A stretch of DNA of 64,000 nt from contig OY783211.1 in NCBI GenBank assembly GCA_963678705.1, positions 10,864,603 through 10,928,602 of the forward strand, given 5' to 3'. The stretch is from Panorpa germanica (Eukaryota; Arthropoda; Insecta; Mecoptera; Panorpidae). Below, one piece after another: positions 39,952 through 63,948 of the stretch. A program made the position numbers and the translations under genes. Under the pieces are notes generated by a model, which saw nothing but the letters and a program-made list of their open reading frames with translations, did no database searches and was not told where the DNA came from. Position 1 is the first letter of the stretch, and each line of letters opens with the position of its first letter.

Positions 39952-40037
39952 CGCCTCCAGGATATCAAATTACGTTGGATTTTCGGGATTACTTCAACAT
40001 TGAGCCTTCCGAAAAATGTGATTATGATTACTTAGAG
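39952..40037 (+). CDS. Neto: Neto exon (CUB1, middle)
   Basis: The exon follows a tttattttcag acceptor and ends GAG|gtaata. It reads PPGYQITLDFRDYFNIEP then EKCDYDYLE, the conserved centre of Neto CUB1. It enters in phase 1 and leaves in phase 0. The open frame that extends upstream of the acceptor has no CUB-like residues and is intron. Confidence 0.9.
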
Positions 40038-43000: not shown

Positions 43001-46000
43001 GAACCCCTTATAAAATCCAAAATAGTTAAAATATTTCAAATATTTTAACGCAGTTCGTCTTCTTAAACTAAAATGGATATAACTGCACCAAAAAAAAAAA
43101 TGAAGAAATCAATAGTTTTCCTTTTGAAAAGAAAGTCCTTGAATTTTTAAAACCCCTTATAAAATCCAAAATAGTAAAGATATTTCAAATATTTTAACGC
43201 AGTTCGTCTTCTTAAACTAAAATGGATATAACTGCATCAAAAAAAAATTTAAGAAATCAATAGTTTTCCTTTTTGAAAAGAAAGTCCTTGAATTTTTAGA
43301 ACTCCTTATAAAATCCAAAATAGTTAGGATATTTTAATTTTTTTAACGCGATTCTTCTTCTTAAACTTAAATGCATATAACTGCAATAAAAAAATTAAAG
43401 AATCAATAATTTTAAAAAAAAACTCCATGAACTTTAAGAACCCTTTATAAAATTCAGAAAAATTAAGATATTTCCAATTTATTAACACAGTTCGTCTTCT
43501 TAAAGTTTAGTGAATATAACTGTATCAAAAGTTTTCAAAGATCCTAAATTTTCTCTAGAAAAAATTGTCCATGAATTTAAAAAAGGTCGCATAGAATTCT
43601 AAAATGAATTGATGTTTAACGTATGTACTTGATGTATGAAACGTCCAATGTTAAAAGTATAACAAGCAAAGATTTAACTAAATTGTTTACTGGATGGAAT
43701 TCTATTTATACATTACCTGCAACGCAGTACACACCGCATGTCGCACGTCTCTCGTCACACCTCATATCTAATTTCACTTCAAAGTTTAAATTATACATTT
43801 AAGTTAGTTACCGTGGTGATAACAATATCTCGTTGTAATGTGATCGTCAGAGTAATATCACATAATGATAATAATAATGATAGCACAAAGTGAAGCGTGA
43901 ATATTTTGCGTTTACCATTAACAGTAACCGGGGGAGTAGGAGGGCGTGCGTGTGGATGTCTAACAACATCGAAGGAGTTAAAATGAGATGACTGACTGTG
44001 TCAGGTAAACTGAATATACCAGAAATATCAAAAATAATGAGCAGGAAGCACGTAACATCTAAATCACTTCTCTATCTAATTCGTATTGTTTCGTATTCTG
44101 TTTTCATGAAATGGGCCCATGAAAGTTGTTCATTATTTTGGTTCTAAGATTTCTACTACTACCTATGTACTACAACTTAAACAATAAACTGTGCTTGAGT
44201 TGAAATATACCAAGAAACTTTCGATTGCGTTAATTTCTGTAATTTGACACGCACACTACACATTCTTGGTACCCGCTAAAATGGTTTCAATTTTGAATAA
44301 AATTTTCATATGTTTCATATATTTATTTAATAGTTTTGTTATTTAACATGAATGTTACCTCACGTCCCTAAACCATAAAATGTTTTATGATTATATTATT
44401 GAAAAATAAACAGAATATGTTGCATTTTAAGTATCATATTTACGTAACAAGTAACTTTTATTATGTTGATTACATCTATTTAATGTTTTTTTCACATATT
44501 ATAAGTTACCTGTTGCGTAAACAATGTTACCTAATATACTTTCTTCTTAAGAAGATAGTTTTAACGATTATAGAATCTAAAAAAAGTTATTTTAAGAATT
44601 AATGGTTTTTAAACTAGCTATAATATAATAAAATACATAATAAAAGGCTTCAGTGACTTCTTTATAAGAAAATTTCTCGCTCAAATTCTCAATAAAAGAT
44701 TTTTTTTTCGTCAAAAAGGTGCTTGATTTATTAACATAGTCTCCTATAAGCTCGTTACATTTAGTCCAGCGTTTTTTCCATTTGTTTATTCTTTCCAAAT
44801 AATAGGTTTTCTCAAATCGCTCAAAATAGGCGTTTGTTAGACCCAAATCTCTTACGGCCCAGCTATTTCTTCAGGTTTGGAAACAGGAAATAGTTGCAGG
44901 GGTCTAGATTTGGTTCGCAGCCCAATTTATGGAGCTTTGGCAGTTGCTTTCAACAGCTGGTTATCTGTTTTCAATTCCTGTCAAACATAAAAAAAATGAC
45001 GCAGCTTGCTCAAATTTGACAGTAGTCTATTAATAGATGGTAGTTAATGAAAGCTGCGCGGGAAGTTCAAAAATTCTCTGAATTATCAAACATAGATTAA
45101 ATATTCTCAAGTTTTGTTAAAGTATTAAATTATATAAATGTAAGATAACATACTTGACATATTCTTATACTTCTAACGTTAATAAATTTAAATTTCTCAA
45201 GTTCCTAAATCAAATGCTTGCTTTAAATCAAATTTCAATTACGACAAAGTATATTAAGAATTTCATAAATGTTACGAAATTAGGCAGACGTTTAAAATGA
45301 TTTAAACGTAATTATCATAATGTATAAAGGAGTACTTCAACTACACACGAAAGTAAACACACACACACACACACACATAGATGTATCACTTACATAGGTA
45401 TGTGTACATAACCTAATTTAAAATTAAAACTGATTTTCTCCGTCCTCCTGACATACCATAAATAATAGCTTTCTACATTTTCAATGCCTTGTCGAGTCGA
45501 GATGGTGGTAGATATTTTATTCTTGTTTTGCTACCCTTATAGGGGTTGTTTTTCAGCCTTATACCCTTACATCGCCCTTCCGAATCCTGCATTTATATAA
45601 GTAGGACTCACTCTTGCTTTAAATTAATTACCCAACATTTTATGCTTGAGCTTTATTTAATTATAACCCGTAATAAATGAAAATTTAAATAAAAGAAAAT
45701 CAATGAAACTTGTAATATTAATATAGGAACCAATAGGAACACAATACTTTTGCTTTATATCGTGTCCGGTAGTGGTGTATTTTAAAATTTCGCAACCCAG
45801 TAAACAATTTGGTGAAGTGTCCTATTTGGTGAAGTTCGAGTCACTCGTACAATTTTATTCTAACGCTTTACAAGTTCGAAGCAACAACACAGAAACCAAT
45901 TTTAGTTAAAATTTATTCCCTACCTGTCAAGATTTTGTGAAATAAAATCTGATATATGTAGTCTTAGCAAGTTCGTTAATAGTTCAAAAGTGGTACACAA

Positions 46001-49000
46001 AAGTCGCTTTTAGTTAAAATTCATTCTCTACCTGTCACAGATTTTTCATAATAATATTCTTTCTTTTTCCAACATCATTCATTAAGTATTTCTGTTCCTT
46101 TCACACATCGATATATTTTTTTTAACTTCACATTCAGTTCATTTATTACAAAGTACAATTAAAGTGAGAGAGAAACGAGATGTGTTAGACAAGCAAAATA
46201 TATTTTTCACCGTTACACTTGTAAACTTATAAAGTATTTCGTTCAGGACAGTATGTATAAAGTATATGCTATCCTTTTTCAACAAATATTTCTTTAATGG
46301 TAATAAACAGACGCTGTCTCCCTCAATCCCCGAGAATAAACGAAGATCTATTCCGCGTTGTTAAGACAGAGGTTTTAAACCTAACGCAGACCTGACAATC
46401 GTAGATTTTTGAATCACCAGAACAATGTAAAAAACTAATATAACCAGAATTGTTAAAGATGAAAAATATTCATTAAAAAAATCACGATCCGTACTAAAGA
46501 TTACATCAATTTATTTCTTAATTTAAATATTTATATTTTACAAATTTAAAAAAATTGAATTCATTAAGTTTTATACCCCTGATCATCCCCAACAAGTGGA
46601 ACAAGTAGCGCCAACTAGCGATAACAAATGCTCGTCCTAGCTATTATCTCTGGTCCTAGAGTCCTGTCAGTTACTAAGTTTCTTTGTGTAATATTTTGAT
46701 AGTTTTGTGAAATAATATATGTTCTTAATCAGTTTTAATACTGCATTAAAAAAACAATAATATAAAATAGTGTTCAAAGAAATTATAAGTTTCTTAAATT
46801 AAATGTTTGGTAAGTTATACATATATATTCAGTCGCCATTTTATGAAGCATCTTATATACGTTTCTTCACTACATATATTTCAACATTTTTCATTCAGAA
46901 ATTTGTTTTAATTTTTCTCTTATATTTCAGACACAAAATTAGACGGTACCCAAAAATTGTTGTAAGGAGAAATAAGAAGAACTTAATTACAAATCAAGAT
47001 TTGATCTACTGATTTGATTTGATTACTGGTAAATAAAATGGTATCCTTACAAGATATTATTTATAAGAGTTATTACTATATAAATATGTAAAGTTCATGT
47101 AATTTCATTTTCAGAAACTGTCTCCTAGATAAAACTAAAGCTAAAGTTCAAGCCCAGTGTATATTCAAGTATATAGAATACTTAGTGTATGATTATTTAA
47201 TGTTTAACAATGTAGACTAATGTTATATTAACAATTGATCAAAAATAATGCTGTAAATAAATTAAATTTAATAAAATATTAATAAAATTCTTACATAAAG
47301 TTATTTATAAATAAGTTTCATTATAAATTTGTTTTCTAATAAAAATCGATTTTATTTTTCAAAATAAATACTCTGTTTAAACTTCCCGCTTAATTTTATT
47401 GTAATTTCTCTGTCCAATCACAGCAGGGCATAAATTATAATTTATAACTCCGGTCATAAATCATAAACCGACTCCGCTTTTAATTCACCAGTGAACCGTC
47501 GTTGCAATGTCTGTAGCTCATAAATAGGCCATTTCCTATGAACGAGTGAATAGAAAACGAATACGTTCCAGACAAAAAACTCATGATATGTAATGGAAAT
47601 TAAGTCGAATTTACTCCAAAATGTTTACTGGGAAACTTGAAAACTGGCACCCAAAAAATTTGTTTTTTTTTTAAATATCTCCTTATCAGTAGCTCTACGA
47701 TAGAAATAGTTATTATCAGTCTGATAGAGGACTCAATTTGCTACAATTTGCAAATATAACATTTTTTTGTTTATCCGAAAAATACACTATTGTCAAGAAG
47801 AGTACTTCGCTAAAAATTGTTAACGATCCAAAACAGCCAAAGACATTCAACAGCGAGACAGATTACACGCACAGTGTAGTTAGATTTCTGTTACAAATAG
47901 AATATTCGCAATACTATTTATAAACAATCAAATACACTTATTCATAGAAATTTCTAAATATATCACTTATCTAAAAATAATTACGGGACGTATTTGATTG
48001 ATTGCGTGGCTTATTGTTAATTAATGCTATAATGTAATTATAAAAGCAATATTCAAGTATTAAAGTGTCAAAGAAATAGCAGAAGGGATTTCCAATAAGA
48101 TGCGTAAATAATGCGTTGTATTAAAAGCTCAACAGATGTGAATTATTTATAGGTTCATTTTATATTCCAGCTAAGGCTTCACTTGAAGAGCTATATCTCA
48201 GATAATTCATACTGAATTCAACTGAAATTCAAATTTTTAATTGCTATATCTCCGTCAACATTTAGATATTTAATAAAATATACACGCCAATACACATTTA
48301 TTAACATCAATTTCAATCAACAATTGAAAAATCGACCACTAAAAAATGAGGACACAAGCCCATTTCTTTTTTTTAATTTATTTGAGTCACTTAAAATAAA
48401 GAGATTAAATTAGTTTAATTAATAAAGTCAATAAGGTATTTCAAACTGCTTTCAAATATCAACCTACATTTGTTATGTAATACAACTATTTGTTACATTT
48501 TAAATTAATATATTAGTAAATAAATTAATTAGTATTTAATGAATATGTATAAAATTATGTTAAACTTCAGTAATAATATAAATAAAATATATTTGATAAC
48601 AAAAATTAAAAGCTCAACATTTAGTAAATTTTAAATTTGAATAATATATAGACATTTCAAAGGAAAATATACATATTATTGTATAATACTTATTTGTACA
48701 TAGTTTAATTATACAATTTTCCTTCTAAATCCAGTATAGTAACAATATTTTTGATTACTTTCAGATATTTTTACATTTCAACACATTTCTTCTTTCAAAA
48801 CCAAATGAATGTGACAAGAATGTTGTTGATATTTTTGAAAATAGAACAGATAATGCAGCAAAGATAAAAAACTTTTGTGGATCAGCTGCAGATAATGCTT
48901 TTTCAAAATCAAATATTTTATATATTAGATTTGTAGCTACTCCAGCTGCTTTAGAAAAATCAAAATTTGAGATTTTATATACTGCATACAGGGAACGCGC

Positions 49001-52000
49001 TTCAAAAGATGAATGTAAGTATGGCTAATAAACGAGAAATTGTGAGTTATTTATGTATATAATTATTTATATAATTTTTAGCATGTAAAGAGCATGAAGA
49101 GTACGACTGCGAGGATCAAACCTGCATAAGCGCTGATCTTGAGTGTAACAAAAACGTTAATTGCAGATTTGGCTGGGATGAAGATGACTGTCCGGTAATA
49201 TAAGTATTAATAAAATATTTAAAATAGTCACTGTGAGTTAGAACACTAATTTATCTCACTTTTTATTGTTACCTCTTTCTGTCTAGCTCTAACTCTCCTT
49301 CATTCTGTATAAATTTCGACTCCTAACCTAAAAAATCCTACAGATACAAAACAGAAAAAAAAAAATTACATAAATTAATTTTCTTTTAAATAAGGAATGT
49401 AAAATTATAGTAAAAGTAATCTCTTAAATGTATTAATCAATGGCAACTATAGTAGTACTGGAGTTTTAATTGCTTTTAGGTTAAAAATACATTTAATTTA
49501 AGATGAGTTTTTCGTTAAACTTCAATCAATGAAAGACTATTGTTAATTATCAGACTCGATAATACAAACAAATGTTCAGAAGTGCAAGACATCGTATAAA
49601 TTAAATTTACAAAGTTTGATTATTGATTTTAGGTTGCCGAAACGGATGGAGATATGGAATCGGATAATATTGTTACCATCCTTGTTATATTCTCTTTGAT
49701 CCTGGCAGGATTATGCACAGCATTTCTAGTCAGCTGCATCAGAAAGCTGATGCGAGATCACGAAATTATACAGGTATGTTAAATCGCTTTATTTCATTTA
49801 AACAGTATATCAATTTGACATTTTAGGTAAAATAGTTCATGTAATAGATAACTTTTGTTTTCTATCCATCTATATAAATATAAACTAAATGACAACGACT
49901 GGCTATTCGCGATTCAGCTAATTTTTTTTTAATGTTTATAATAGTTTGAGTAAGGTTTTCAGAGAAAAAAATTAGAAAAGTTGTTCGGAAAATGTTTCAA
50001 ATGTGTCAAATTGCGAATCAAGCTAATAGCGACGAAAATTGGCACAGTTGTTCATTTTCTGTTGAATTGTGAAAAAATGTGTTTTAATTTGTACTGCACT
50101 TTTAATTTAAGAAAATTAAATTTATATTTTATTATATAAATAAGTCTGCTTTAATAGATGCCATGATATCAAACAGATTGAGAACCACCGCGGACAATAT
50201 TTACTCACTTTTTCATAATTAACAACAGTTATTCTTCAAGTCAAGAAGACAGGTTTTCATTGAGATTCTTAAGCATTTCGCTTAGTAACTAGTATAACAA
50301 TCGCGTCTTAACAAAAGTTTCAAGTAATTATCCTTTAAATATAAGACAATTAGATTCTATATTAGTAAAAGCTTTTAAGAAAAGTGTACTCCCAGTTCTT
50401 TAGACATTTTCCGCTATTAATATCAATTATTTTCACCAAATTTCTGACAAAAGGTTGCTGTAAGATTAATAATAGATAATTTATCCTTAAGTAAAATTGA
50501 ATGGAACGCTGGGAAACGGTGAAAGGGATGTACACACCCGTACAAGAAGTCAAATCCTAAATAATACGATCCATTATTTACCATAAGGGCTTTTTAAACA
50601 TTTTCTTTTCTTTTTCTTTTGACGTAAAAATTCTTTTAAAATTTTCATTTTATTTACAATATTATTATTATTGATGATTATCATTTATCACTAAGTAATC
50701 CATCAAATTAAATTAAAATCTTAATTTATTATAATGTTATTTGAAAAGTTACTTTGCTTTGTGGAAACTGGAAGGGAAATTATAATACAAAAGAGGGTTT
50801 TATTATTACCTACTTTGCGTTCACCATTTTTTCAAATTATGCTAATTAACTGAGATGTATGTAATAATGTATTTCCTTCGGGAAATCCTTCATTATTCAT
50901 TTAATTTTTCTCTTAACATCTTTATTAAAGCTGTACTCCATCCTTAACGATATTAGCTTTGTAACGATTTTAAGCTCGTCGTTTACGCTTGTTAAATTCA
51001 TCAATAGAATCGTTATTAATATTATTTTTTCGTTATTATAAGATTTACGTTGTATATTATTTTTACACCTGGTTATAACATTATGAGACCTATGCCTTTC
51101 TCCTTTAGACACACAATTTGTAACATAATCTCTTATTTCATAATTTTAAACCGCCTGCGGAGGGTGAAATGCAACCTAAATAACACTTCTTTGATTAATA
51201 AATATTTAAGGCAAAAATCAATAAACGTAATTAAAAATTGTATTGTTTATATAATTATTTCATTATATAAACTATTGATATATGTCTGGAATTGCGGTAT
51301 TGCTCAATTATATAATTACAAAACATGAATTATTATTATTTTATAACGAATAAATTTTTAATCTGAAAAATAGAATTTAATTCATTCTTTATTACCTATA
51401 CTTATTAAAAATTTCACATATATATACCTCTCACTTATGCATATTGTTTCTAAAATACACAATTTAAAATTATGAAATTAATGTTATATACTTTTGTAGG
51501 AACACATACGGCAATCCCAAGAAAATGATTTAGATGAAATAGGCCGAAAATCTACGAAAACACCAGAAGATATAACAAAACATGGTCATAGTAAACGACG
51601 ATCGCCAAGTCCAGATACAAACCAAACACAGCACAACCTAGCGGTAGATAGCTTAAACTGTTACGTACCTACAGATACATTAATCCCGATTATACAAAAA
51701 AAGAATTCAAATCTTAATAACGGTGATATATTTATAAGAGATAATAGAAGTAATGAATTATTAAGAAAGAGAGGTGATATGGAATTACAATTACATGAAA
51801 CCGAAGAAGTAAGTATTGTAGATTGTTATTATAAGGTTTAAATCTTGGATAATTTATTTTTTTAAATAATATTTTACAGAGACAATATGATTCGGATGAT
51901 TTAATGGGAAGTGGGAATACAAACGAACTAGAGCCAATACCGGAAATGTGTGATAGTGCCTGTCAAACACGGGAAAGTTTATTCCGCCCTCAACTTTCTT

Positions 52001-53137
52001 CCAGCAGTGGTACGGATTCCCCGCACGTCCTCAGTAGTCACGGGACTCTGGTGCGAGATCGAGGAGTCCAGAGTCCACGATTTTCTACATTTGGGTATAG
52101 TCATTAAAATTACTTTAAGGTGAAACGATACTTGGCCATTGTTGACTCGCAAAATATAGATTTCAATATTCATTTTCAAAATTTATTTTTGCGGTTCCAA
52201 CTCATTAAAAGTCTGTGGAAGAAAGCTTAAAATGTAGATACGTTATTCATCTAACTAATTGCAGCTTTAGATTTTGATTCGCGTTTATAGTTACTTACAT
52301 AAAACGATTTAAACATAAAAGAACATGGTTTTCTTTTATATTATTTAACCTGCAGTGTAGTATCGCCATCTATATTTCGCTAGTCAAAATGGTCAAGTAT
52401 CGTTTCACCTTAACGGGCTTGGAAACGATGAATAAATTTCTATAAAACTGTACTAAGTATTGATAAAGTTGACTATCAGAACCTCAAATAATTTTGGAAA
52501 AAGTAAAAACACCAATTTAAATTTAAAAAGAATTCGCAAACTTATTATTATTTCTTGGATCGTCCAATAACAGGAAATAAAATATTCTAAAAAGTTGTAC
52601 GTAAACTTATTATATTCTAATTTCAGATACGATGATTCAAGAAACAGAATAGACCAGCAACATACACTTCCAAAACAAAGTGAACGGTAAGATTTATTCG
52701 CTTTTTAAAAACTTAATAAATAATATTCTAATCAGATAGTAGAGAAAATAGGACCATACATTTTTCAGATTATATAACATAAAATCTCTTCTTCCAGATA
52801 CAAAGCAGAAGCTGTCATAGAAATGGAACAAATCAGGGACAAATCTCGCAGTAAAACTACAACGAATCCTGAATACGATTCAAATCGAACAATAATAAAC
52901 ACAACAACCCCAACACCACCTATTGGCTGGGATCTCCAAAAATCAAACGTACCTCACTCCTTTTCACGAAGCCCTCAAAACTACCGAGTGCACGACAGCA
53001 GCTCGAAGAAACACGAAGCAAATAGAAATAAAAACTATAACGAAAATGTAAATAAACACGATTTAAAAGAAAATAGAGGTTTCAGTGTTGAAACAACAAA
53101 ATCAGCACCGGATGTAATTATAATGACATCACACTGA
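39952..53137 (+). CDS. Neto: Neto-like CUB/LDLa membrane protein, 5' incomplete (10 exons)
   Basis: Neto proteins are single-pass auxiliary subunits that cluster and modulate ionotropic glutamate receptors (at the neuromuscular junction in flies). Exons seen: 39952-40037, 41027-41201, 41997-42157, 48765-49014, 49082-49194, 49633-49773, 51500-51808, 51880-52094, 52627-52686, 52798-53137. All have GT/AG borders and the phases chain without error, giving 616 visible residues. Residues 1-86 are the second half of CUB1 (CDYDYLE, GKFCGRTFP). Residues 90-222 are CUB2 (EHGGNEG, KPNECD, NFCGS, ILYIRF). Residues 224-262 are an LDLa repeat with six cysteines. The membrane segment is about 274-297, followed by IRKLMR and a tail of about 316 residues. 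Signal peptide and first half of CUB1 are missing: exon 1 enters in phase 1 from an exon I could not find. The order CUB-CUB-LDLa-TM is diagnostic of Neto. The gene is probably transcribed through a very long 5' intron. Confidence 0.88.
40113..40366 (-). mobile_element. family B MITE, one end lost
   Basis: From TTAAGGTGAAAAGATATTTG this follows the inverse complement of the copy at 52115-52413 to about 40366 (shared core gcgaatcaaaatctaaagct). The far terminus is absent. It lies in the Neto intron after exon 1. Confidence 0.75.
41027..41201 (+). CDS. Neto: Neto exon (CUB1, end)
   Basis: Acceptor ttttcag; donor C|gtgagt. It begins VMDGAYGFSSPLGKFCGRTF and ends YAGFIAVYEFTPRPSN, completing CUB1 with the usual cysteine and the final Y-F strand. 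It leaves in phase 1. Confidence 0.9.
41997..42157 (+). CDS. Neto: Neto exon (start of CUB2)
   Basis: Acceptor gttaacag; donor AGG|gtaacc. It carries PPDMEMCLIEHGGNEGLVK, then DDIP, and ends DCMWVITVKQGWR. The HGGNEG...IP block is a Neto CUB2 hallmark. Phase 1 in, phase 0 out. Confidence 0.9.
42635..43620. repeat. tandem array, ~148 bp unit, 6-7 copies, in Neto intron
   Basis: The phrase aaatcaatar (or close variant) recurs at 42661, 42808, 42957, 43106, 43254 and 43401, spaced 147-149 bp; a decayed seventh unit ends near 43620. Each unit also holds tagaaccccttataaaatcc and acgcagttcgtcttcttaaa. Copies in the middle are most alike and the edge copies more diverged, the usual pattern of a satellite-like array. 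Confidence 0.85.
44443..44522. repeat. hairpin-forming inverted repeat
   Basis: atttacgtaacaagtaactt pairs with aagttacctgttgcgtaaac across a ~40 nt spacer. The same arm (tttacgtaacaggtaa) occurs singly at 35587. Possibly a tiny MITE. Confidence 0.5.
44592..44960 (-). mobile_element. mariner-type transposase relic
   Basis: On the minus strand, the C-terminal mariner block reads ERINKWKKRWTKCNELIGDY. Preceding pieces, in shifted frames, read like CNYFLFPNLKK and GRKRFGSNK of the mariner LFPNLKKWLGGKRFGSN motif. Stops and frameshifts separate the blocks, so it is inactive. It lies in the long Neto intron. Confidence 0.65.
44985..45090. repeat. repeat shared with 16100-16190
   Basis: aatgacgcagcttgctcaaa, then ttgacagtagtctattaata and gctgcgcgggaa, ending gaattatcaa. 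The same order occurs at 16095-16190. Because it adjoins the mariner relic, it may be flanking or 5' sequence of the same element. Confidence 0.5.
45356..45377. repeat. (AC)n microsatellite
   Basis: Eleven AC units in the long Neto intron. Confidence 0.9.
48229..48364 (-). mobile_element. family A fragment (left end only)
   Basis: Inverse complement of about the first 135 bp of family A, ending in GAGGACACAAGCCCATT. It lies in the long Neto intron. Confidence 0.8.
48765..49014 (+). CDS. Neto: Neto exon (rest of CUB2)
   Basis: Acceptor attactttcag; donor T|gtaagt. It continues W-R|IFLHF, then KPNECD, DIFENRTD, IKNFCGS, ILYIRFVAT and FEILYTAYRE, completing CUB2. The 6.6 kb intron before it holds a tandem array, a mariner relic and a family A fragment. 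Confidence 0.9.
49082..49194 (+). CDS. Neto: Neto exon (LDLa repeat)
   Basis: It encodes SCKEHEEYDCEDQTC through WDEDDCP: six cysteines of an LDLa module with the acidic GWDEDDC calcium corner. Acceptor tttttag; donor CCG|gtaata. Phase 1 in, phase 0 out. Confidence 0.9.
49633..49773 (+). CDS. Neto: Neto exon (membrane segment)
   Basis: Acceptor gattttag; donor CAG|gtatgt. It reads VAETDGDMESDN, then the hydrophobic run IVTILVIFSLILAGL continuing to FLVSCI, then the basic stop-transfer IRKLMR. This is a single-pass type I anchor. Confidence 0.92.
51500..51808 (+). CDS. Neto: Neto exon (cytoplasmic tail 1)
   Basis: 103 codons, phase 0 on both sides, acceptor cttttgtag and donor GAA|gtaagt. 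The peptide is polar and likely disordered (EHIRQSQENDLDEIGRKS, SKRRSPSPDT). The SPSPDT stretch offers possible proline-directed phosphorylation sites (inference). Confidence 0.85.
51880..52094 (+). CDS. Neto: Neto exon (cytoplasmic tail 2)
   Basis: Acceptor attttacag; donor GG|gtatag. It is serine/acid-rich with MCDSACQTRESLFRPQLSSS. If the next intron is retained, the frame continues GYSH and stops at 52105-52107, which would give a shorter tail of about 187 residues. Confidence 0.85.
52115..52413 (+). mobile_element. family B MITE with TTAA ends (complete)
   Basis: TTAAGGTGAAACGATACTTG at the left is repeated inverted at the right, and the ~45 bp ends match with few differences. 299 bp with no coding frame. 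The TTAA borders suggest piggyBac-type integration; a TA-targeting Tc1/mariner origin is also possible. It lies in the intron between Neto exons 8 and 9. Confidence 0.8.
52434..52496 (-). mobile_element. short family A fragment
   Basis: aatttctataaaactgtact, then tattgataaagttg and cagaacctcaaat match the family A right end in inverse orientation. It sits 21 bp after the family B element in a Neto intron. Confidence 0.5.
52627..52686 (+). CDS. Neto: Neto exon (small, cytoplasmic tail 3)
   Basis: A 60 nt exon between aatttcag and CG|gtaaga. It reads YDDSRNRIDQQHTLPKQSE and keeps phase 2 on both sides, so skipping it would leave the frame intact. Confidence 0.8.
52798..53137 (+). CDS. Neto: Neto last exon to the first stop
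   Basis: Acceptor cttccag. It begins RYKAEAVIEMEQIRDKS and ends SAPDVIIMTSH before TGA at 53135-53137. The tail is hydrophilic and rich in N, K and S. A second acceptor-like site lies at about 52768, but using it would not preserve this frame join. Confidence 0.85.
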
Positions 53138-53314
53138 CATCCAGGATGCGAGTGGGAGCCCTATAAAAGGCGCCACCCGCGAAATTTCCTCAGAACTAAA
53201 TCCTTATCTGTTTCTAGTAATGATATACCCAAACCAGCTCCTTGTGCTCCTGAATTTCCTGTAAATTATATATTTGTTAGGAATTGTCAAACTCAAACTG
53301 ATATTGAAACATGA
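53138..53314 (+). CDS. Neto: candidate readthrough extension of Neto (58 codons)
   Basis: Directly after the Neto TGA the same frame stays open for 58 codons and ends at TGA 53312-53314. The peptide looks like real protein: HPGCEWEPYKRRHPRNFL, then KSLSVSSNDIPKPAPCAPEF, and it ends NCQTQTDIET. Its codons are more GC-rich than the AT-rich 3' DNA that follows. The stop context is TGA-C, which is known to be leaky, and arthropods have many conserved readthrough stops. Alternatives are a base error making a false stop, or a splice form using the AG at 53145-53146. No transcript evidence is available here. Confidence 0.5.
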   Translation, partial: HPGCEWEPYKRRHPRNFLRTKSLSVSSNDIPKPAPCAPEFPVNYIFVRNCQTQTDIET

Positions 53315-53365
53315 TATTTTAAACTGCAGGAATTGATTTCGATCAAATTTGATTATTTCATTATT

Positions 53366-53371
53366 AATAAA
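53366..53371 (+). promoter_or_regulatory. poly(A) signal of Neto
   Basis: AATAAA about 50 bp after the downstream TGA, followed by T-rich sequence. It fits a short 3' UTR for the extended reading and about 230 nt for the first stop. Confidence 0.5.
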
Positions 53372-55626
53372 GATTTTGTTTGTATTTATCTTGTATGTAT
53401 ATAATCATTTTTTACATATCAAATTAGTTATTTTTTTAAATACATAAATTGTTAGCTCTATACAAAACATGCTCAATTGATGAAAATAGTCAGGCAATAT
53501 AAAACCCATATTTTGTAACTGTTTGACTATTTTGTAAATGATTTTTCCAAGGTTTATATTTCTAAATTAGGCTATAAGGAAAGGCTATTAGGCAGGAAAA
53601 TAAGTCGCATACCTTGGTGAAGACATAAGGAGCCTAATTTAACAAATACTTGAAGAATCATTAGAATTTATTGGACGCCTGTTAAACAGTTTCAAAATAC
53701 CGGTATACCATTTCCTAGGTAAATCATGATTTTAAATCTATTCTCAATAAAGTGATGGTGTTATTGATGCAGTATGCTGCTCAGGCGTTTATATTTTTTA
53801 TAAGAAATTGTTAATTTATAAAAATACGTTATTATGAATTGATGACTTAATGTTCACTTTTGATAAATAGACTTAAGCTAATCTCACACTGTGTCTGTCA
53901 TTTTCAATAGAGTGTTTTTGAATTGTTTCGCATTAGCACATTTTATCGTAAGAGTAAATTTCTATTTTAATGTTTATCAATACACTGCTGCTGTGAAATA
54001 ATATGTAGTTCTTACGTTCGTACTCATAATGCGCTTCCATGCGTATGTAGATAAAAGTACCGCTTTTACTTTATCATTAAAAGTTGTGTACATTACTTTC
54101 TACAATTATTTCTTCTAAATTAAATCACACGAATGCTGCGCTAGGTCATTAATTCATATCAGGTGTTTACCTTTATAAAATGTTTTAGATAAATGCAGTA
54201 ACACTTGGTCATCAAAATTATTTACCTATTTTTATGATTTTGGATATTTTTTATATGTTGATTCCAAAAACACACGACTTTTTCTCGTAGCAGCTCTATT
54301 TTTTGGGATGCATTTGCAATGATTTTGATAATTTGTTAAAAATGGTTAACTTTATTCTTCGATGGCAAAGAGTCTATGCTGTCGAAATTCTTTTTGGAGG
54401 TTTTGGAGCTATCGGAGCTCTTTCGAATGTCCTAAAACATACAAAATTTCATTGCCAAAAGAGTAAAATGTATAGCATGAATAATTCATGTGGCACAAAG
54501 CTATTGTATATTAAGTTTTAAAGTTTTAAAAAATATCCTAAGAAAAATTACTATTACTGATAACAACAACAGATAAAAGAAACTATAAGAAAAAAACATT
54601 ATTATTATTATGAAAATAAGTGAAAATATATTGTTTCAAATGGACAATCAAATCAAATACACAAAATTATATCAAAATTAAATGAAAGAAATTTATTGCT
54701 TTTTTTACGTTCATATTTGTAATGATTTTGTTGATTTAATAACTTTGTAATTGATCTACTTCTTAACTGTTTTATTAATAAAATTAAATAGAGAATTTAT
54801 CAAATCAATTAAATATTTAATTGCAAATTAGTTAAACTAAAGTTCAAATAATAAAAGAGTTATCTGTAAACATTCATTTATTGTATATTAGATAAGAAGG
54901 CATTGAAAATATGTTTATATGTCTAGTGGCTCGCCAAATCTCAGTACATCCATCTTAGCAATGTCTGCATAAACAAAACATAAATCATCCCACTCTAAAT
55001 TTTATTATATCCACTGCAAATTTCTTTGTAAGGTTTCAAGTACCGACCAAACCAGTGCGACTACAAAAAGTTATTATATATTTCAATCCAAATTTCAATA
55101 ATCCAGGATTAAAATCCATTGAATTCAAATGAACATTTCTTTAGGAATAACATACCGTTCCAAGCACTGGGCTACAGAGAACATTTCTGTATCAATTATA
55201 TTAGTTATTAAATTTAATCAAAATCAAATCAATTGTGTTAAATTATATAATTTCCTATTAATAATATTAGTAAACAATGAATAAGTGAGGCGTTGAATTA
55301 TAATATTATTACTTATAAATTGTTTTCAGTTTGTAAACAAAAGAATGCGTACAATGCTTGTAAAATAACGTTTCAAAATTCACTGCAAATCCGTGAACCC
55401 TTGAACCCGACTTATCCCAACCCTGTAGATATATATAAAAAACAGCGTACCAAATTATTGTAATATATTAATCATTTTTAAAATAAATAATAAATTGTAA
55501 ATAAAAAATACTAATGTGTAATAATCTTTACATTATTGTACACAAAATGTTTTAATAAATAAAAAAAAATATGTCACTTGTTTTTCTTTACTACTGGAAT
55601 TAGGATTAGCATTTGAACCCCTGACT

Positions 55627-55785
55627 TAATTTCTATAAAACTGTATTACATATATTGATAAAGCTGGCTACCAGAACCTCAGATATTTTAGGAGATATTA
55701 ACAATTAAAAAGTCTCTTTAATTATTAACGGGATACAACGTTTTGAAAATTCCAATGCATGGTACGTCACATCAGACGATTTCCC
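55627..55785 (-). mobile_element. family A fragment (right end)
   Basis: Inverse complement of the family A right third: tttctataaaactgta, tattgataaagc, aacctcag, aacaattaaaaagt, gggatacaacg, ccaatgcatgg. Terminus lost. Confidence 0.6.
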
Positions 55786-56275
55786 ATATCGTTTATAGAA
55801 CAGAGATACGTACGAGTGTGTGTGTATGTGATACATCATTTACTTGTAACAGCTGGGCACATCACGAAGGTTGTGAAAAAGGAAAAATAATCTCGACTAT
55901 TTGTTTCTTCTGTGACGTATTGCGCATATCTAAAACATGTGGCAAAATTGATATTTAACTTATATATGCGTTCATAGGTCCGCACCGTATGTGAATGTGT
56001 CTTATCAAATGGAATTAAGTATTTTTTCTATTGATAGTCTATAAAACAATATAATATTAACAAATTAAAAATTATTTTAATGGATATAACAAATAAAAAT
56101 GAATCAATTCAATAATAACACAATGCTGCTACAATGTTGAATTCAGTAAACAAAATCACGTAATTAAAAATAATATTTACAAAATAAATATAATTCTTTT
56201 AAGTTTTTTAAAATTATTTTATTTTACTTAAAGTCTTATTACCGAAGGTGTATGATTTGTGAGTATTAATTCTGA

Positions 56276-56350
56276 TAAAAACCAAACCCAGAAAATATAG
56301 CGATGGTCCGGAGAGCACACTACAATCACAGCAGTTTGGTATCAAGCTTA
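56276..56350 (-). mobile_element. decayed SINE fragment
   Basis: ccaaacccagaaaatata, then cacagcagtttgg align with the SINE at 30500-30560. The promoter boxes are eroded. Confidence 0.4.
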
Positions 56351-57287
56351 ATGCAGCATCTAACACTTTCAAGAGTCACTAAATATTGTGTGATTTGTGG
56401 TTGCATCCTTATCACAGTCTTCTGCGGACGAACATCAGTATAAGACAAGAAACAGTATTGTTGTAACACTCAGTGAATGCAGTCGTCATAAATGTATTAA
56501 AACAGTTTTAATTTATATAACAAAAATCAAATATTACATAAAGGTAAGTTTCTTTTTATCTTTAAGATTAATAATGTAGTATATAGATAAAAATATGGAG
56601 TTAGTTACAGAATTATTTTAAGAAATATTATTAGAAATTTGATTTTAGATATATTTTATTTTTTTAAAGCAGATGTAGTTTTTATTTCACTGCACGTGTA
56701 CTTTTATTGTTGTTGTTCTATCTGCTTTAAAATAATTTCTTTTTACAGCTTGTAAAATTAATTTAGACAAATCTACAAGTTTTAATTAACAGTTTGTGCA
56801 TTTAATAAGAACAGGGCTAATCAGATAAATCAGTGATTAATTAAATATTTTCATTTTTACTACCTATTGTGTTTTGGGCACACTCAAGCAGTTGTAAAAT
56901 TTTATTGCTAAATACTGACGTCAATTGACCCTTACGGCATCTTATGTCATAAGACTCATAAGTAATTTATAAGAACAATCTTATGATAAGATCGCTGAAA
57001 ACTGCACATTAGAACAACGATTTTGCTATGTGAATTAAGGCCTATAATAGCCATTTTCTGCGCACTTATACAAGCACGGCTAGAGCCCCAATATTTTGAA
57101 TTTCCCGCTTAATATTTTGAACACTACCAGAGTTTTACTTAAACAAAACCTGCTAATATTAAAGTAACTTTTTACATGATATATCATTCAGAAATCAGTA
57201 CAAATGACGTAACATCTCCCTTTTTGTTTTGTCTTTTTATATTTTTATTTTAGCTAATAAATTTTTCGTTTTGACAGTAACCTAATC

Positions 57288-57489
57288 ATGTGGCGGCCAA
57301 TTTTAGCTTTGATAATATGCATCACTGTGGATCCAACTGAAATGAAACCTGGTATCACTATAGGAAGATTGAATTTTGAATGTTATATTAAAGATTCGTA
57401 TCAATGCGTAAATGGAAATTGTGTCCTTAAAGAAAAACATTGTGATGGAGTAGAAGATTGTGCTGATGGAAGCGATGAGTTGGAATGTG
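57288..57489 (+). CDS. VgR: VgR exon 1 (signal peptide, LDLa 1)
   Basis: Starts [19 protein letters not shown], a hydrophobic leader, then LDLa 1 with six cysteines and the calcium motif [11 protein letters not shown]. Donor G|gtaagt. An acceptor-like ttttgacag sits 10 nt before the ATG, so a non-coding exon may precede it. Confidence 0.85.
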
Positions 57490-60400
57490 GTAAGTTCATT
57501 AATTTATATGTGTACCTCAGAAACAGAAAAATAGCATTTATGTATAACGTTTCTTCATAGTATAAGCATAGTAAAATACATAATTAATATAAATATATAA
57601 CACCAGGGGCGGCCTTAGCCATTACGAGGCCCCGAGCAGCAGATCTTTGCGATGCCCCGGGCTGCAGATCTTTTCTTGTTCTTTGGCACTTGTTCTTTGT
57701 ATAATTTAAGTAAACTGTAAGAAGGTATTTTTGATGATAATTGACGAGAAATAAAATTTTATATTGGAAGTTTTATAAAAGTTACCAAGCACAAAGATGA
57801 CAAATATTAATGATGATAAACTAAGGTACATGAATACCTTAATGGAGGACGCAGTGATTCAAGTGGGATTTCTAAACAGCGAGGCGCGAGATTCAAATAG
57901 ATATGTAGTAATGATTTTTTCTACTTGGGTTGTTGCGCGAAAGAGAGAAAAAATTAACATATTTTTCCGCTGCGGAAAAAAATAATATTTCCGCCGCGAA
58001 AAAAAAACTTGCCACCCACTAATACGTCTGTTTATAACATAGAAAATATTGACGTTTTAATTTTTGTAAATGTCCAAAAGTTGACGGAGTTATTGCTATA
58101 TCAAATTTAAATTTGTTTTGGTGCATGTTTTAGCTATGCACAATACGTCACACAATAAATAAATATTAGAGATATTAGAAAATATAAGAATTCTAGCTTT
58201 TGAAAAATGAAATATACATATAATATATTTACAACATTCCTTACGATTCTAATAATATATTAACTGTGTTAACCGGGCGGTCTATTGCATTGTTATTGTT
58301 TTCAGATAAATACCATTGTACACCTCCCAACTGGTACAGATGCAAAGAAGGCACTTGCATTTCTGTAGTTTATAAATGTGACGGAGAAAATGAGTGCATT
58401 GACGGGTCTGATGAAGTGGACTGCGAAGGTGAGAGACAAAATAACATACTGTGTATTATATTAAAAGAAACTATGATTTTATTGAAGTTCACACGCTAAA
58501 CGAGAGAATAACAACGAAATATTTTGTAGGTTATGATGATAATCGGCGCACAAATGTCACTTGCACGTCAGATGAATGGAAATGCAATAACACTGACTGT
58601 ATTCCAAAGGATTTTGTGTGTAATGGACAAAAGGATTGCAAAGATGAATCTGATGAAGTTTTTGGATGTGCTATTCGTGTAAGTTGTGATAAGTGAATCT
58701 TTTTTATTATATATATATTTACGCGTCTCACTTAGAGATGGCGCCACTGTATTATGAAAAGTGTGTATCTCGAAACTACTTCTTTTTTCCTGTTCACCAC
58801 AATATATCGAAAACGCCTCATTTGATTTTAATAAAAATTACACCATATCTTCTTTATAAATTTATCTTTATAAAATTATTTTATGATTGGATGTCTTATT
58901 GAATTTTTTTAACTTACAGTTTTAACAAAAAAAACGTCATTTTCACAAAAGGAATTTAAACTATATGCCCTATGCTCGATAGATAATACCAGCAAAACGA
59001 TTTGAGTAATTTGTTATGTAAATACATTCACAAATGTTTATAGTATTTAATTATGATAAAAAAATACATTATGTATACCTCCTAATGGTTGCGTCAAAAA
59101 ATCCAATCCTTTTATATCAGCTTTTAATAGTTTTTACTTCATTAATTTATTCTAGTATCCATGTCCAGGATTTGTCTGCAAAGAAGGCAGGTGCATTGAT
59201 AAGAGTTGGATTTGTGACGGTGCTCAGGATTGCGATGATAATGATGATGAAAAGAATTGCGGTAAGAAATAATCACAAACATTTTGTACAAACCTCGTCA
59301 TAATAACACTAAGAAACGAAACATCTTACTTCGTATTGATAGATGATAGACCAGTCAGCTTTATGTGCGTGTTAGAACATGATCATTACCCATGTCGTGA
59401 CAACTCCAGCTGTATTCCATTGAGCAAAGTCTGCGATAACATTAATCATTGTAAAGATGGTTCTGATGAAGGAGAAGCGTGTTCCGCAAGTAAGTACATT
59501 TTTATGATTGTGCTGGTCTTTAAATATCTTCTAAAAATTAGGTTAATTTATCAACAGGTGTGAATAAATGTCAAATTACAAAATGCGGTCATGAAAATTC
59601 AACATGCGCTGTAACTCCTGCAGGCGCTAAGTGTATTTGTCCTAAGGGCTATCAAAACGTTATGCATTCTTCATCGGATATTTACTCCATCTACAACAAT
59701 CAACAACGATGTGTCGACGTGGATGAATGTGCTACCATCTATGGTCTTTGTAGTCATGTCTGCATAAACACTCCCGGTTCCTACAAATGCGAATGCGATC
59801 GCCACTACCTTCTTCAACCGGATGGATCTTCTTGTAAAACTGTTAGTAAGTAATTTAACAATTGGCTTGTGTCCTCATTTTTTAGTGGTCGATTTTGCAA
59901 TTGTTGATTGAAATTGATGTTAATAAATGTGTATTGGCGTGTCTATTTTATTAAATATCTAAATTTTGAGCAATTAAAAATTTGAATTGTAGTTTCAGCA
60001 CTAGAAGTTATCGGCCATATTCGTATGACGTGAAATGCATTTATACGTCAGTTATTTGTTGAGTAGGTCAGTGCTGTAGTAATGTTTTGTAGCTGTTGGT
60101 AGTCGAAATAATCAAATCAAATCAAACAATAATAAGTTTTTATTTTATTTAACCCTGTTGTAACAGACATATTATTGGAACTTTATTGTTCCTTGAAATA
60201 GCTGTAAATAATATTTGATATATAAATACATATAGCAGAGATTTATGAGCTATATCGGTTGTGATGTCACATGCATTTGGAATGTGTACAACGCTGAATC
60301 TCTTTAATAAATAAAGAGACAAAATGACTTTTTTAATTGTTAATATCTCTTAACATATAAGGAGTTATTAAAAAATAATTGAACATTTGATATTCTAGTA

Positions 60401-61653
60401 ACCCACTTTATATAATACACTTTTATAGAAATTAAGACATAGGACACAAGCCCATTGCTGAGGAAGTCAGTTTCAAGTTTTTTCAATTTATTTCATAAAT
60501 TGCAGATTCGGATCCGGAATTGCTATTCAGTACAGAATCAGAAATTAGAAGTCTGTTACTAAAATCCAGAGTTTTAAAACCCGTTGTTGAACGTGCTGAA
60601 TTAGTGGTTGGCGTTGGTCACGATGATCATTATATTTATTGGACCGAACTTTACGAACAATCTGAGTCACTGATGAGAGCTAAAGAAGGCGGAGAGCACG
60701 AAGTTAGGAACCATAGTTATTTTCATTTTACGGTTTGCTGGGTTGTTAAATGTAAAATATATATTTTTTTAATTTTTCAGATTTTGGTGCGATCTGGTAT
60801 TTTAACTCCGGAAGATTTAGAAGTTGACTGGTACACAAATAATATTTACTTTACCGATTCAGAATTAAGTCATGTGGCAGTATGTACGAATGACGGTGAC
60901 CATTGCACTGTGTTGATTAATAGTGATATCGAAAAACCTCGAGGAATAGCTCTGTATCCTGCAAAAGGGTAGATAGATTCCAATTACGTGAACTACCAGC
61001 TGTTCAAAACTTAATTACATTTAAATTGAAATATTTCTAGATTGATGTATTGGTCCGATTGGGGCAAATATTCAAAAATTGGTTCTTCCTTTATGGATGG
61101 TTCAACACCAAAGGCATTGGTAGCTGAACATTTGGGATGGCCCAATGGAATTGCCCTTGATGTATCTAATGATAGAATATATTGGGTAGATGCTAGGATG
61201 AGTAATGTTGAAAGCGTCAAATTGGATGGATCAGACAGACGTGTAAATTAAAAATTCATTATTTTTACTAGGATTATTGAAATTATTAACTCTAAGTTAA
61301 CATAACTAACACTGACATATTTTGTAATAATAGATAGTTCTCGAAGGTGGTTCCAAACATCCTTTCAGCATCGCCATCTTTGAAGACAATATCTATTGGA
61401 GTGATTGGAAATCTAAGAGTATTCAAACATGTCATAAGTTTAACTGCAAGAATCGAACAACTGTTATTAAAGTGGACAAAAGATTAATTTACGGTATACA
61501 TATACGCCATAGTGCACTGCAGCCAAAGTTTAAAAATCCCTGCGAGAACAGTAAATGTACTCACATTTGTCTACTGAAAGGAGTCGATAATCACGCGTGC
61601 GCTTGCCCTGAAGGTCGTGAACTTAGTAGTAATAAATATGAATGCAGAGGTAC

Positions 61654-61724
<71 letters not shown>

Positions 61725-63948
61725 ATATTATTTATTTATTTATTTACTTTGACTTTTATTCGTCATAGCCACCATCTAACATTTTTTACATATTTCACAT
61801 TTTATAATTCTATTTCACAATATATCACTAATTAATTTTGAATCACTTAACAAAAATTTAGAATATTAACAGGAAAAGTTTAAACCACATCTAATATTTC
61901 ACTATTGAATTTTTATCTTTCCGGCTAAACTATAATATTAAACTATATATTTAAACTATAATTTATGCATTCAAATATAATATGATCCAAAGTTCCTATT
62001 TTTACTCCTGGAGTTTTACAATGATTACTTTTGATTTTGATTATAGTTGATATAATTTTACGGGACTCATTTCTAAACCATCTTTTCTTACTTAAATTTA
62101 GATGTAACATATAATAATCTCTTCCTTTTAACTGACTTTTGTTAATGAAATCTTGGTTTCTCAAATTGAAGTTTAATTTTTTGATTATATTAAATTTCAT
62201 ATGAAGGTAATTTCACTTTCATCTCAATTTCCAAATTTATTGATTCCTTTGCCAATTTGTCCGCAATTTCATTTCCTCTTATTCCACTATGTCCTGGTAT
62301 CCATTTTATGGTATTATTTTTAGTTATTATATTGAAATACAGCTCCTTAATTTTGCATATCAAAATATCATTTTTTAATTTGTAATCATTAGAATTTAAA
62401 TTTTTTAAAACACTTAAAGAATCCGTTATTATTATATTTTATTATTGTTCATATTTTCATTAATTTCCAATGCTTTTAATATTGCTAATTTTTCTTCAGT
62501 ATAAGAGCTAACTTTGTTATTTAATTTAAATTTATCATATAATAAATGTATTTGTTCATATATAGCAAATATTATTGGCGTATCTGATACAGTTTTCTTT
62601 TGCAGTTACTAACGGAAAACCGGAATTAGTGCTTGGCGCTGGAAGTTTATTCATAGCGTTATCGCATCAAATTCTAGGAAAACACAACACAGCAGGCATT
62701 CCTCTTGAATTAACAATTAGTGAAATGGTTTACGATAGCAAAAAGGGGCGGATCTTTATGGCAGATAATATCCAACGAAAGATCTTTGCTTTTGACCCCA
62801 AAGACGTAATGACGGGTTCTCGGAATTTGTCAGTTATAGTTCCTTCTACAGAGACTGTGGAAGCAATGGATTTTGATCCATTTGGAAATAATTTATACTG
62901 GGTTGACAGTACATCTAAATCAATAGAAGTATTTAATTTGGGGGTAAAAGAACATGCTTTGCTCTTGCACGACTTGGAAGATGAAACTCCAATTGGTTTA
63001 GCTCTAGTTCCCGCTAAGGGAGTTATGTTTATTGTATTTAGAGCCACTAATCATACTTATATTGATAGGATGCGTATGGATGGCAAAGGTAAGTTGTCAC
63101 AAAACAAACACTTTCCATTCTGCTTGTAGATGTGTCGCACTTTTCACTTTTTCTATTCTAAATTTTATTATCTGCGGACAAACGCTCTGTTTAGATCCCC
63201 CAGTAGATTAATAATATTTTACCAATGTGCAGGTGAACGAACTACCATAATTTCCCGAGGATTATCCATAACTGGTATAATCAGATTGGCTTTTGACGTA
63301 AAGAGTCATCGTATATTTTGGACAGATCAAGAGTCTGGTAATATGGAAAGCACATCTGTTGAAGGAGATGATAGACAATTGTTCAGGAAATTGTTGAATC
63401 TTCCAATTGGTTTAGCTATACTACAACATAACATTTATTGGACTTCTAAACACTCAAGCACAGTACATTGGGTTGATACACATCATCCTAAAACCAATTT
63501 TAAAAAAACAATTAGTCTAGGTGATAATATGTTCGCTTTTGTAGTGTTACAAATTTTTATACAAATTCCTAATGAACATTCATTATATTATTTACAGATC
63601 CTCTAAACTATATTAGGCCAGATTATCCAGATTCTCTTCTACATTTGGAAGGTTTTGAAAATCTACGAATTGCTGCAGTGACAGGTGTTTATCATTATAT
63701 CCATCCCTGCCAAGAATCAAATGGTAATTGTTCGCACATATGTGTTCCTCTCTCATACAAGACTACTTCATGTTTGTGTCCACCTGGTTTGACTTTATTG
63801 AGGCCAGAATATCTACGGTGTATAGTCAATATTAGATGCAACGTAAATCAGTTTAGATGCTACACTTCCAATAGCTGTATTCCTATTGCATTAAGATGTA
63901 ATGGAATATCTAACTGCGCTGGAGCAGAAGATGAAATCGATTGTGATG
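57288..63948 (+). CDS. VgR: vitellogenin receptor (yolkless-like LDL-receptor family), 3' incomplete
   Basis: Insect VgR is the oocyte receptor that takes up vitellogenin by clathrin-mediated endocytosis. Exons: 57288-57489, 58306-58428, 58530-58678, 59156-59261, 59343-59489, 59558-59845, 60506-60702, 60781-60968, 61041-61242, 61334-61649, 62606-63088, 63233-63520, 63598-63948; phases chain for about 1013 residues. Order: signal peptide ([14 protein letters not shown]), five LDLa repeats (about residues 29-240), two EGF modules (244-338, the second with DVDEC), propeller 1 (340-600), EGF (about 605-639), propeller 2 (640-910), EGF (about 930-970), and an LDLa repeat opening cluster 2. The remaining cluster 2, membrane anchor and endocytic tail lie beyond the window. 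The ATG is the first in frame after an upstream TAA. LRP2 or LRP1 is less likely because the 5-repeat cluster followed by two propellers is the VgR plan. Confidence 0.8.
57604..58032 (+). mobile_element. hAT-like non-autonomous element (family C) in VgR intron 1
   Basis: Left end CAGGGGCGGCCTTAG; right end is the inverse of CAGACGTATTAGTGGGTGGC. Flanked by TATAACAC (57596-57603) and TATAACAT (58033-58040), a near-perfect 8 bp duplication typical of hAT elements. Contains mirrored ccgctgcgg and ccgccgcg runs. No transposase. Confidence 0.65.
58306..58428 (+). CDS. VgR: VgR exon 2 (LDLa 2)
   Basis: One complete LDLa repeat: [14 protein letters not shown] through [11 protein letters not shown]. 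Acceptor tgttttcag; donor G|gtgaga. Phase 1 on both sides, the classic symmetrical LDLa exon. Confidence 0.88.
58530..58678 (+). CDS. VgR: VgR exon 3 (LDLa 3)
   Basis: [13 protein letters not shown] through [11 protein letters not shown], six cysteines, with NVT and NNT glycosylation sequons. Donor CGT|gtaagt in phase 0, as required by the next exon. Confidence 0.85.
59156..59261 (+). CDS. VgR: VgR exon 4 (LDLa 4)
   Basis: [13 protein letters not shown] through [12 protein letters not shown]. The calcium corner is DDNDDE instead of DGSDE but keeps the acidic ligands. Acceptor ttattctag; donor G|gtaaga. Confidence 0.85.
59343..59489 (+). CDS. VgR: VgR exon 5 (LDLa 5)
   Basis: [16 protein letters not shown] through [11 protein letters not shown], the last repeat of the first ligand-binding cluster. 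Acceptor attgatag; donor A|gtaagt. Confidence 0.85.
59558..59845 (+). CDS. VgR: VgR exon 6 (two EGF modules)
   Basis: The first EGF runs [15 protein letters not shown] to CPKGYQ; the second is calcium-binding ([16 protein letters not shown], then [13 protein letters not shown]). This EGF pair precedes the first propeller in the LDL-receptor family. Donor A|gtaagt. Confidence 0.88.
59860..60456 (+). mobile_element. family A element, copy 6, inside VgR intron 6
   Basis: Left end AATTGGCTTGTGTCCT, right end AGGACACAAGCCCATT. It occupies 597 of the 660 bp of the intron, starting 14 bp after the donor boundary and ending 49 bp before the exon 7 start. Confidence 0.87.
60506..60702 (+). CDS. VgR: VgR exon 7 (propeller 1 start)
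   Basis: [14 protein letters not shown], then [14 protein letters not shown], the first YWTD blade. The donor GAA|gttagg is weak but gives the right phase 0 join to the next exon. Confidence 0.8.
60781..60968 (+). CDS. VgR: VgR exon 8 (propeller 1)
   Basis: [16 protein letters not shown], a YWTD-variant blade, ending [12 protein letters not shown]. Acceptor atttttcag; donor GG|gtagat, phase 2. Confidence 0.85.
61041..61242 (+). CDS. VgR: VgR exon 9 (propeller 1)
   Basis: LMYWSDWG, then [20 protein letters not shown] and [10 protein letters not shown]: two further blades. Acceptor atttctag; donor CGT|gtaaat. Confidence 0.88.
61334..61649 (+). CDS. VgR: VgR exon 10 (propeller 1 end, EGF)
   Basis: [19 protein letters not shown], then IYWSDW, ending the propeller with LIYGIHIRH. 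The EGF follows: [14 protein letters not shown], then CACPEGREL. Donor G|gtacta leads into an intron full of (TA)n and an antisense LINE. Confidence 0.85.
61655..61722. repeat. (TA)n microsatellite in VgR intron 10
   Basis: About 34 TA units directly between the exon 10 donor and the tail of the antisense LINE. Confidence 0.95.
61720..62590 (-). mobile_element. LINE 3' fragment, RNase H domain, antisense in VgR intron 10
   Basis: Reading on the minus strand from about 62590: [26 protein letters not shown], then [20 protein letters not shown], the conserved RNase H blocks (the catalytic D of TDS, and H and D of GHSG..GNEIAD). Further on, GRDYY, KKRWFRN and TLDHIIFEC resemble the C-terminal zinc-knuckle region. 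There is a frameshift between the first two blocks. The 3' side ends in an AATA-rich tail next to (TA)n. The I/R1/Jockey-like clade is not resolved. The element is 5' truncated. Confidence 0.75.
62606..63088 (+). CDS. VgR: VgR exon 11 (propeller 2)
   Basis: Begins [19 protein letters not shown] and contains [24 protein letters not shown] and [10 protein letters not shown]: degenerate YWTD blades of the second propeller. Acceptor ttttgcag; donor G|gtaagt. Confidence 0.87.
63233..63520 (+). CDS. VgR: VgR exon 12 (propeller 2)
   Basis: [20 protein letters not shown], then [16 protein letters not shown]. Acceptor aatgtgcag; donor CTA G|gtgata, which joins in phase 1 to the next exon as GAT. Confidence 0.85.
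63598..63948 (+). CDS. VgR: VgR exon 13 (EGF, first LDLa of cluster 2)
   Basis: [13 protein letters not shown] ends the propeller. The EGF is [17 protein letters not shown] with [10 protein letters not shown]. LDLa 6 is [14 protein letters not shown] to [10 protein letters not shown]. Donor G|gtatgt; the gene continues past the window. Confidence 0.87.

Follow-up and report, generated by a model that had tools for sequence, protein, structure and literature searches.

A candidate UGA readthrough extension with an adjoining predicted stem-loop in the neto gene of Panorpa germanica

The neto gene and the open frame beyond its first stop

The 3' end of the neto gene was analyzed in a 64,000-nucleotide (nt) stretch of the Panorpa germanica genome (assembly GCA_963678705.1, contig OY783211.1, positions 10,864,603 to 10,928,602), hereafter called the window and numbered from its first base. 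The neto frame continues past its first stop, a TGA followed by C, for a further 58 codons, and a candidate readthrough of that stop is the subject of this report. The window has a GC content of 29%, neto and all of its features given below lie on the plus strand, and neto provides the sole 3' gene end identified. The neuromuscular glutamate receptors of the fly depend on Neto as an essential auxiliary subunit, and the cytoplasmic parts of Neto shape receptor composition (PMC4408064).

The 5'-most exon assigned to neto, at 39952 to 40037, encodes part of the first CUB domain (Pfam CUB, E 1.3e-05 for the surrounding open reading frame, ORF), with splice sites that were read by eye and then checked. 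A further CUB exon was found at 41027 to 41201 (Pfam CUB, E 2.6e-07 for the surrounding ORF; Neto2 ranked second behind cubilin among the PDB matches, E 1.5e-10), followed by an exon at 41997 to 42157 that has no Pfam match and that, according to its frame and splice sites, extends the reading frame into the second CUB domain, whose exon lies at 48765 to 49014 (Pfam CUB, E 3.7e-10 for the surrounding ORF; top PDB match Neto2, E 0.0015). Together with an LDLa exon at 49082 to 49194 (Pfam Ldl_recept_a, E 0.00066, 20.3 bits, under the cut-off of 24.1) and a transmembrane exon at 49633 to 49773 (VAETDGDMESDNIVTILVIFSLILAGLCTAFLVSC..., read by eye from the sequence, Pfam being uninformative), these exons give the Neto layout of CUB, CUB, LDLa and a single transmembrane segment, with Neto2 among the best PDB matches. 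The cytoplasmic part is encoded by exons 7 (51500 to 51808), 8 (51880 to 52094) and 9 (52627 to 52686) in our own numbering, assigned from splice sites and frame, the latter two with phase-2 donors, and by the last coding exon at 52798 to 53137, assigned from sequence and frame. When joined, these four form one open frame that ends at the TGA. Drosophila Neto-alpha and Neto-beta likewise consist of CUB, CUB, LDLa, transmembrane segment and a long cytoplasmic part, which has 351 residues in Neto-beta (PMC4408064) compared to 307 encoded between 51500 and the first stop of the present gene.

The original prediction had proposed that this stop is read through, and the sequence features from which it started were found as it had described them. 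The end SAPDVIIMTSH, which the prediction had called conserved-looking, precedes the stop, C directly follows the TGA of 53135 to 53137 to give a leaky-type context (TGA-C, 53135 to 53138), and the Neto frame then stays open for 58 codons (HPGCEWEPYKRR...NCQTQTDIET, 53138 to 53311) to a second TGA at 53312 to 53314. The first poly(A)-type signal past the second stop, AATAAA, lies shortly downstream at 53366 to 53371. The six bases after the first TGA, CATCCA, agree at five of six positions with CARYYA, the readthrough consensus of plant viruses. The 58 extra residues have a computed isoelectric point of 8.6, contain the basic stretch YKRRHPR and look disordered.

The extension with its second TGA (53138 to 53314) was assessed by frame, codon-usage score and GC by codon position against a background of stretches treated as noncoding (1 to 39700, 42250 to 48650, 50000 to 51450 and 53400 to 57200, both strands). 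Background frequencies are only rough, because positions overlap and unrecognised exons may be included. If the first TGA were the only stop in use, the run would be ordinary 3' untranslated sequence that is open by accident, and open runs of at least 58 codons were indeed found after 99 of 7658 background stops. However, the codon-usage score of the extension was matched by only 2 of those 99 runs, and TGA-C was combined with a run of at least 58 codons at 4 of the 7508 background stops with enough downstream sequence. The two other frames of the extension contain stops and have a lower codon score, and coding scores fall beyond the second stop.

A predicted stem-loop downstream of the TGA

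The 60 nt past the TGA are predicted to fold, at -18.4 kcal/mol, into a single stem-loop that starts six bases after the TGA and occupies 53143 to 53190, or +9 to +56 when the T of TGA is taken as +1. Over its entire length of 48 nt, the structure comprises a 5-nt bulge and an inner hairpin of 35 nt with a loop of 8 nt (53147 to 53181). Equally stable 60-nt segments were found after 24 of the 7508 background stops, in 14 of 3197 samples taken over the whole window and in 4 of 221 samples from coding exons. An open run of at least 58 codons together with an equally stable fold occurred after one of the 7508 background stops, and the combination of TGA-C, run and fold stability after none of them, which speaks against an accidentally open frame. 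The inner pairs had a mean probability of 0.74 to 0.90 in six of seven folding contexts and of 0.44 in the remaining one, 53135 to 53314, where the best fold differs. The stability is partly a matter of plain GC content, since the first 43 nt are 63% GC, a value matched at 0.3% of window positions.

A stem-loop in a similar place is known from Drosophila dfr/vvl (drifter), where an element at +9 to +59 promotes readthrough. Its deletion, its weakening or a shift by 3 to 9 nt lowers readthrough, and closing of its bulges raises it (PMC13170385). The neto element, at +9 to +56, lies in nearly the same place, and neto has a C at +4. The conserved nucleotide block of dfr covers -18 to +68, and third-position changes of the synonymous kind are confined to the sequence 3' of it (PMC13170385). 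In both genes the codon-like pattern is found mainly 3' of the stem-loop, as judged from substitutions in dfr and from composition in neto. The two cases differ in the stop itself, which is UAG in dfr and UGA in neto, and in their basis. The dfr element is conserved across 29 species of Drosophila as well as two further flies, and was assayed both in cells and in larvae (PMC13170385), whereas that of neto is predicted from one sequence.

More widely, 353 functional readthrough stops have been catalogued in Anopheles gambiae, where readthrough favours TGA as the stop and C as the base behind it, and where predicted conserved structures accompany 9% of the readthrough candidates compared to less than 1% of the remaining transcripts (Jungreis et al. 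2016, PMC5100048). Among 851 readthrough candidates of bumblebees, at least 306 functional cases were deduced (PMC7826183). Tribolium and Apis gave no sign of abundant readthrough in a single-genome test, perhaps for want of annotation (PMC5100048). The neto stop shares with the insect candidates the TGA, the following C, the in-frame second ORF and a predicted structure within 100 nt; in contrast, those candidates rest on multi-species PhyloCSF and the neto case on the composition of a single sequence (PMC5100048).

Decoding of the UGA by selenocysteine insertion, or its loss through RNA editing, was also considered, each of which needs the UGA codon that is present. Rfam gave no family at the gathering score in the whole window, and at E up to 5 it gave three matches in 52700 to 54900, none of them a selenocysteine insertion sequence (SECIS); selenocysteine was rejected on this ground. 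The A of the TGA is preceded by G, a neighbour that ADAR enzymes disfavour. Either route is very improbable here.

Coding signature, the splicing alternative and the case for readthrough

The original prediction had called the whole 58-codon run protein-like in composition, and this was upheld for its distal part only. Over the whole extension, GC at first, second and third codon positions (GC1, GC2 and GC3) was 0.47, 0.48 and 0.24, respectively. In the distal part, 53219 to 53311, the values were 0.48, 0.42 and 0.06, a strong third-position signature; its excess of first- and second-position over third-position GC (GC12-GC3) was matched by none of 694 open post-stop segments and none of 10230 open background segments. 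The codon score of this part was matched by 173 of 5131 open segments and reached by 0.4% of 5042 GC-matched controls. A change-point fit placed the start of the low-GC3 part (53192 to 53311) best at 53192, two bases past the end of the hairpin, with 53204 nearly equal. The absence of the distal signature from all 694 post-stop segments, together with the rarity of the combined stop, run and fold, makes a chance open frame rather improbable, even though its first 26 codons resemble background.

Several observations weigh against readthrough. In the proximal part, 53138 to 53215, GC1, GC2 and GC3 were 0.46, 0.54 and 0.46, so the third-position signature is absent; the GC12-GC3 value was matched by 407 of 1025 post-stop segments and 5933 of 14702 open segments, the codon score by 725 of 7356 open segments, and 42% of 1745 GC-matched controls reached that score. 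In keeping with a chance open run, 20-codon windows within the extension scored from about -0.10 to 0.19, some of them below zero. The hairpin is unevenly supported by dinucleotide shuffling: shuffles folded as well in 29, 7 and 15 per 1000 for three short cuts, and were as stable in 27 of 200 at 100 nt and in 37 of 200 at 180 nt, where the best fold differs. The inner hairpin does pass a dfr-type screen (minimum length 35 nt, loop 3 to 10 nt, bulges no larger than 2 nt, position inside the first 60 nt past the stop). However, stem-loops of this shape, as scored by our own script and not that of the authors, follow 709 of the 7508 background stops, and 1012 fly genes pass the published screen, which has the same thresholds for length, loop and bulges (PMC13170385), so the shape alone is weak evidence. 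The rare features are the stability, the position and the combination, not the shape. The coding-like part of the tail, finally, could be reached by splicing, because a good acceptor lies in phase at 53218.

With this acceptor, either exon 9 (through its donor at 52686) or exon 8 (through that at 52094) would be joined directly to 53218, bypassing the exon at 52798 and the TGA with it, and the 26 open codons ahead of the acceptor would be due to chance. The possible alternative 3' terminal exon would occupy 53218 to 53314. Against a matrix built from the nine real neto acceptors, whose own leave-one-out scores range from 2.0 to 12.7, the acceptor scores 7.6; among 3042 AGs of the window, the 95th percentile is 5.2 and the 99th is 8.8. 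The sequence directly 5' of it is AACTAAATCCTTATCTGTTTCTAG, and CTAAA is found 18 nt 5' of the acceptor. The phase suits both donors, giving ...LPKQSER-NDIPKPAP... or ...RFSTFG-NDIPKPAP..., open to the second TGA, and the isoform spliced from exon 9 would end ...LPKQSER-NDIPKPAPCAPEFPVNYIFVRNCQTQTDIET. A second in-phase acceptor, at 53281, is weaker (score 4.8). The restriction of the coding signature to the distal part of the extension agrees with such an exon, as does the fly gene, where alternative cytoplasmic exons are known. The two tails of Drosophila Neto arise from such exons, with readthrough unmentioned in the excerpts of that paper (PMC4408064).

Splicing to 53218 would nevertheless require that the used acceptor at 52798 be skipped. 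It also treats the TGA-C, the position of the hairpin and the 26 open codons as chance, and runs of at least 26 open codons follow 1025 of the 7658 background stops. The change point at 53192 falls 26 bases ahead of the acceptor, though 53204 fits nearly as well. Because TGA-C, hairpin position and the open codons are left to chance, splicing is ranked second to readthrough, as an unlikely but real rival. Removal of the TGA by an intron within the last exon was rejected. The GT donors available there are of phase 0 or 1, for which acceptors in matching phase downstream of the TGA score at most 0.2, and the only phase-2 GC donor in that exon, at 52989, is not consensus-like.

The missing signature in the proximal 26 codons is compatible with coding, because the ten pieces of neto exons themselves vary in third-position GC between 0.12 and 0.53, several being unbiased. 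A GC-rich stem would by itself lift third-position GC. The coding-like distal codons might also be explained if the ancestral protein reached the second stop and the first TGA had arisen recently by nonsense mutation, were polymorphic or resulted from a base error. That would leave both the C behind the stop and the adjoining hairpin unexplained, and such an origin seems quite improbable.

UGA readthrough of neto is therefore considered the best explanation, with a probability of roughly 60%. The reading of the original prediction is plausible and gains from the well-placed stem-loop, in addition to frame, TGA-C context and composition, and it is qualified by the proximal codons and by the in-phase acceptor. 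The frame, the TGA-C, the predicted hairpin and the distal codon signature are read from the sequence itself, whereas passage of ribosomes through the stop, folding of the hairpin in vivo and the role of the tail are inferred. The majority of ribosomes would terminate at the first TGA and produce the form ending in SAPDVIIMTSH. In a minority, a near-cognate tRNA would decode UGA-C, helped by the stem-loop, which would obstruct termination from the side where the mRNA enters, and these ribosomes would continue to the second TGA and produce Neto with 58 more cytoplasmic residues.

The C-terminal tail and the surrounding sequence

The last ten residues of the extension, NCQTQTDIET (53282 to 53311), contain a core, TQTD, like that bound by the dynein light chain LC8, and VRNCQTQTDIET is the predicted tail peptide that bears it. 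The LC8/DYNLL-binding motif, [D/S]-K-X-[T/V/I]-Q-[T/V]-[D/E], has been called loosely characterised (PMC3078936). The neto tail shares its last four positions, T-Q-T-D, and differs at -4 and -3, where it has N and C instead of the natural D/S and K (PMC3078936), so the full motif is absent. With a motif so loosely characterised, LC8 might still bind weakly. When the extension was shuffled 20000 times, the core appeared in 76 cases, a frequency to be read with the motif having been picked after it was seen. GKAP, a postsynaptic scaffold protein, is among the binding partners of LC8 (PMC12797016), and fly postsynapses carry dynein puncta, loss of dynein leading to larger receptor fields with unchanged receptor levels (PMC11959486). 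It is our guess that the NCQTQTDIET tail might link a minor fraction of Neto molecules with LC8.

Before the first stop, DSACQTRESL (51954 to 51980) forms with NCQTQTDIET a pair of CQT-type motifs in the neto tail, possibly a pair of docking sites. The C-terminal -DIET we take to be an unlikely PDZ ligand.

It is also conceivable, as a long shot, that the same NCQTQTDIET tail is reached by two routes, hairpin-stimulated UGA readthrough and splicing of exon 9 to 53218, so that a dose of Neto with a possible dynein-light-chain docking site would be set apart from bulk Neto.

The extension had no match in Pfam at E up to 1 or in NCBIfam at E up to 5; the three PDB matches obtained had E values no better than 0.56 and were treated as chance. 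Scans of viral contigs and genome contigs, and tblastn of the extension against plasmids, gave no homologue of the tail; these collections are not meant for insects.

Two repeats lie in neto introns. At 52115 to 52413 there is an element resembling a miniature inverted-repeat transposable element (MITE), with 26-base terminal inverted repeats that are 96% complementary, and an inverted relative of it is found within neto approximately 12 kb upstream, at about 40112 to 40366 (230 bases, 90% complementary). About six 149-base units form a tandem array at 42648 to 43530. Downstream of neto and on the same strand, an LDL-receptor-like gene was traced over 57261 to 63606 (LDLa and EGF by Pfam in two ORFs, more repeats by eye), and a TA-rich microsatellite of about 90 bases, 61654 to 61743, lies right behind one of its exons.

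The name Neto is absent from the main texts of PMC5100048, PMC3840789, PMC7826183 and PMC13170385, whose candidate lists sit in supplements beyond that scope. A literature search gave nothing on Neto readthrough in titles and abstract starts among the matches listed, and a text search with short peptide strings gave no match. No claim is made that Neto readthrough is unpublished.

Readthrough stops are already known by the hundreds in insects, and the present case, if true, is notable for its gene. A translationally controlled tail would then be an extra means of tuning the synapse, of a kind that ordinary gene annotation misses. As a UGA case with a hairpin placed nearly as in dfr, it would also bear on whether the position of the stem-loop is a general rule of insect readthrough.

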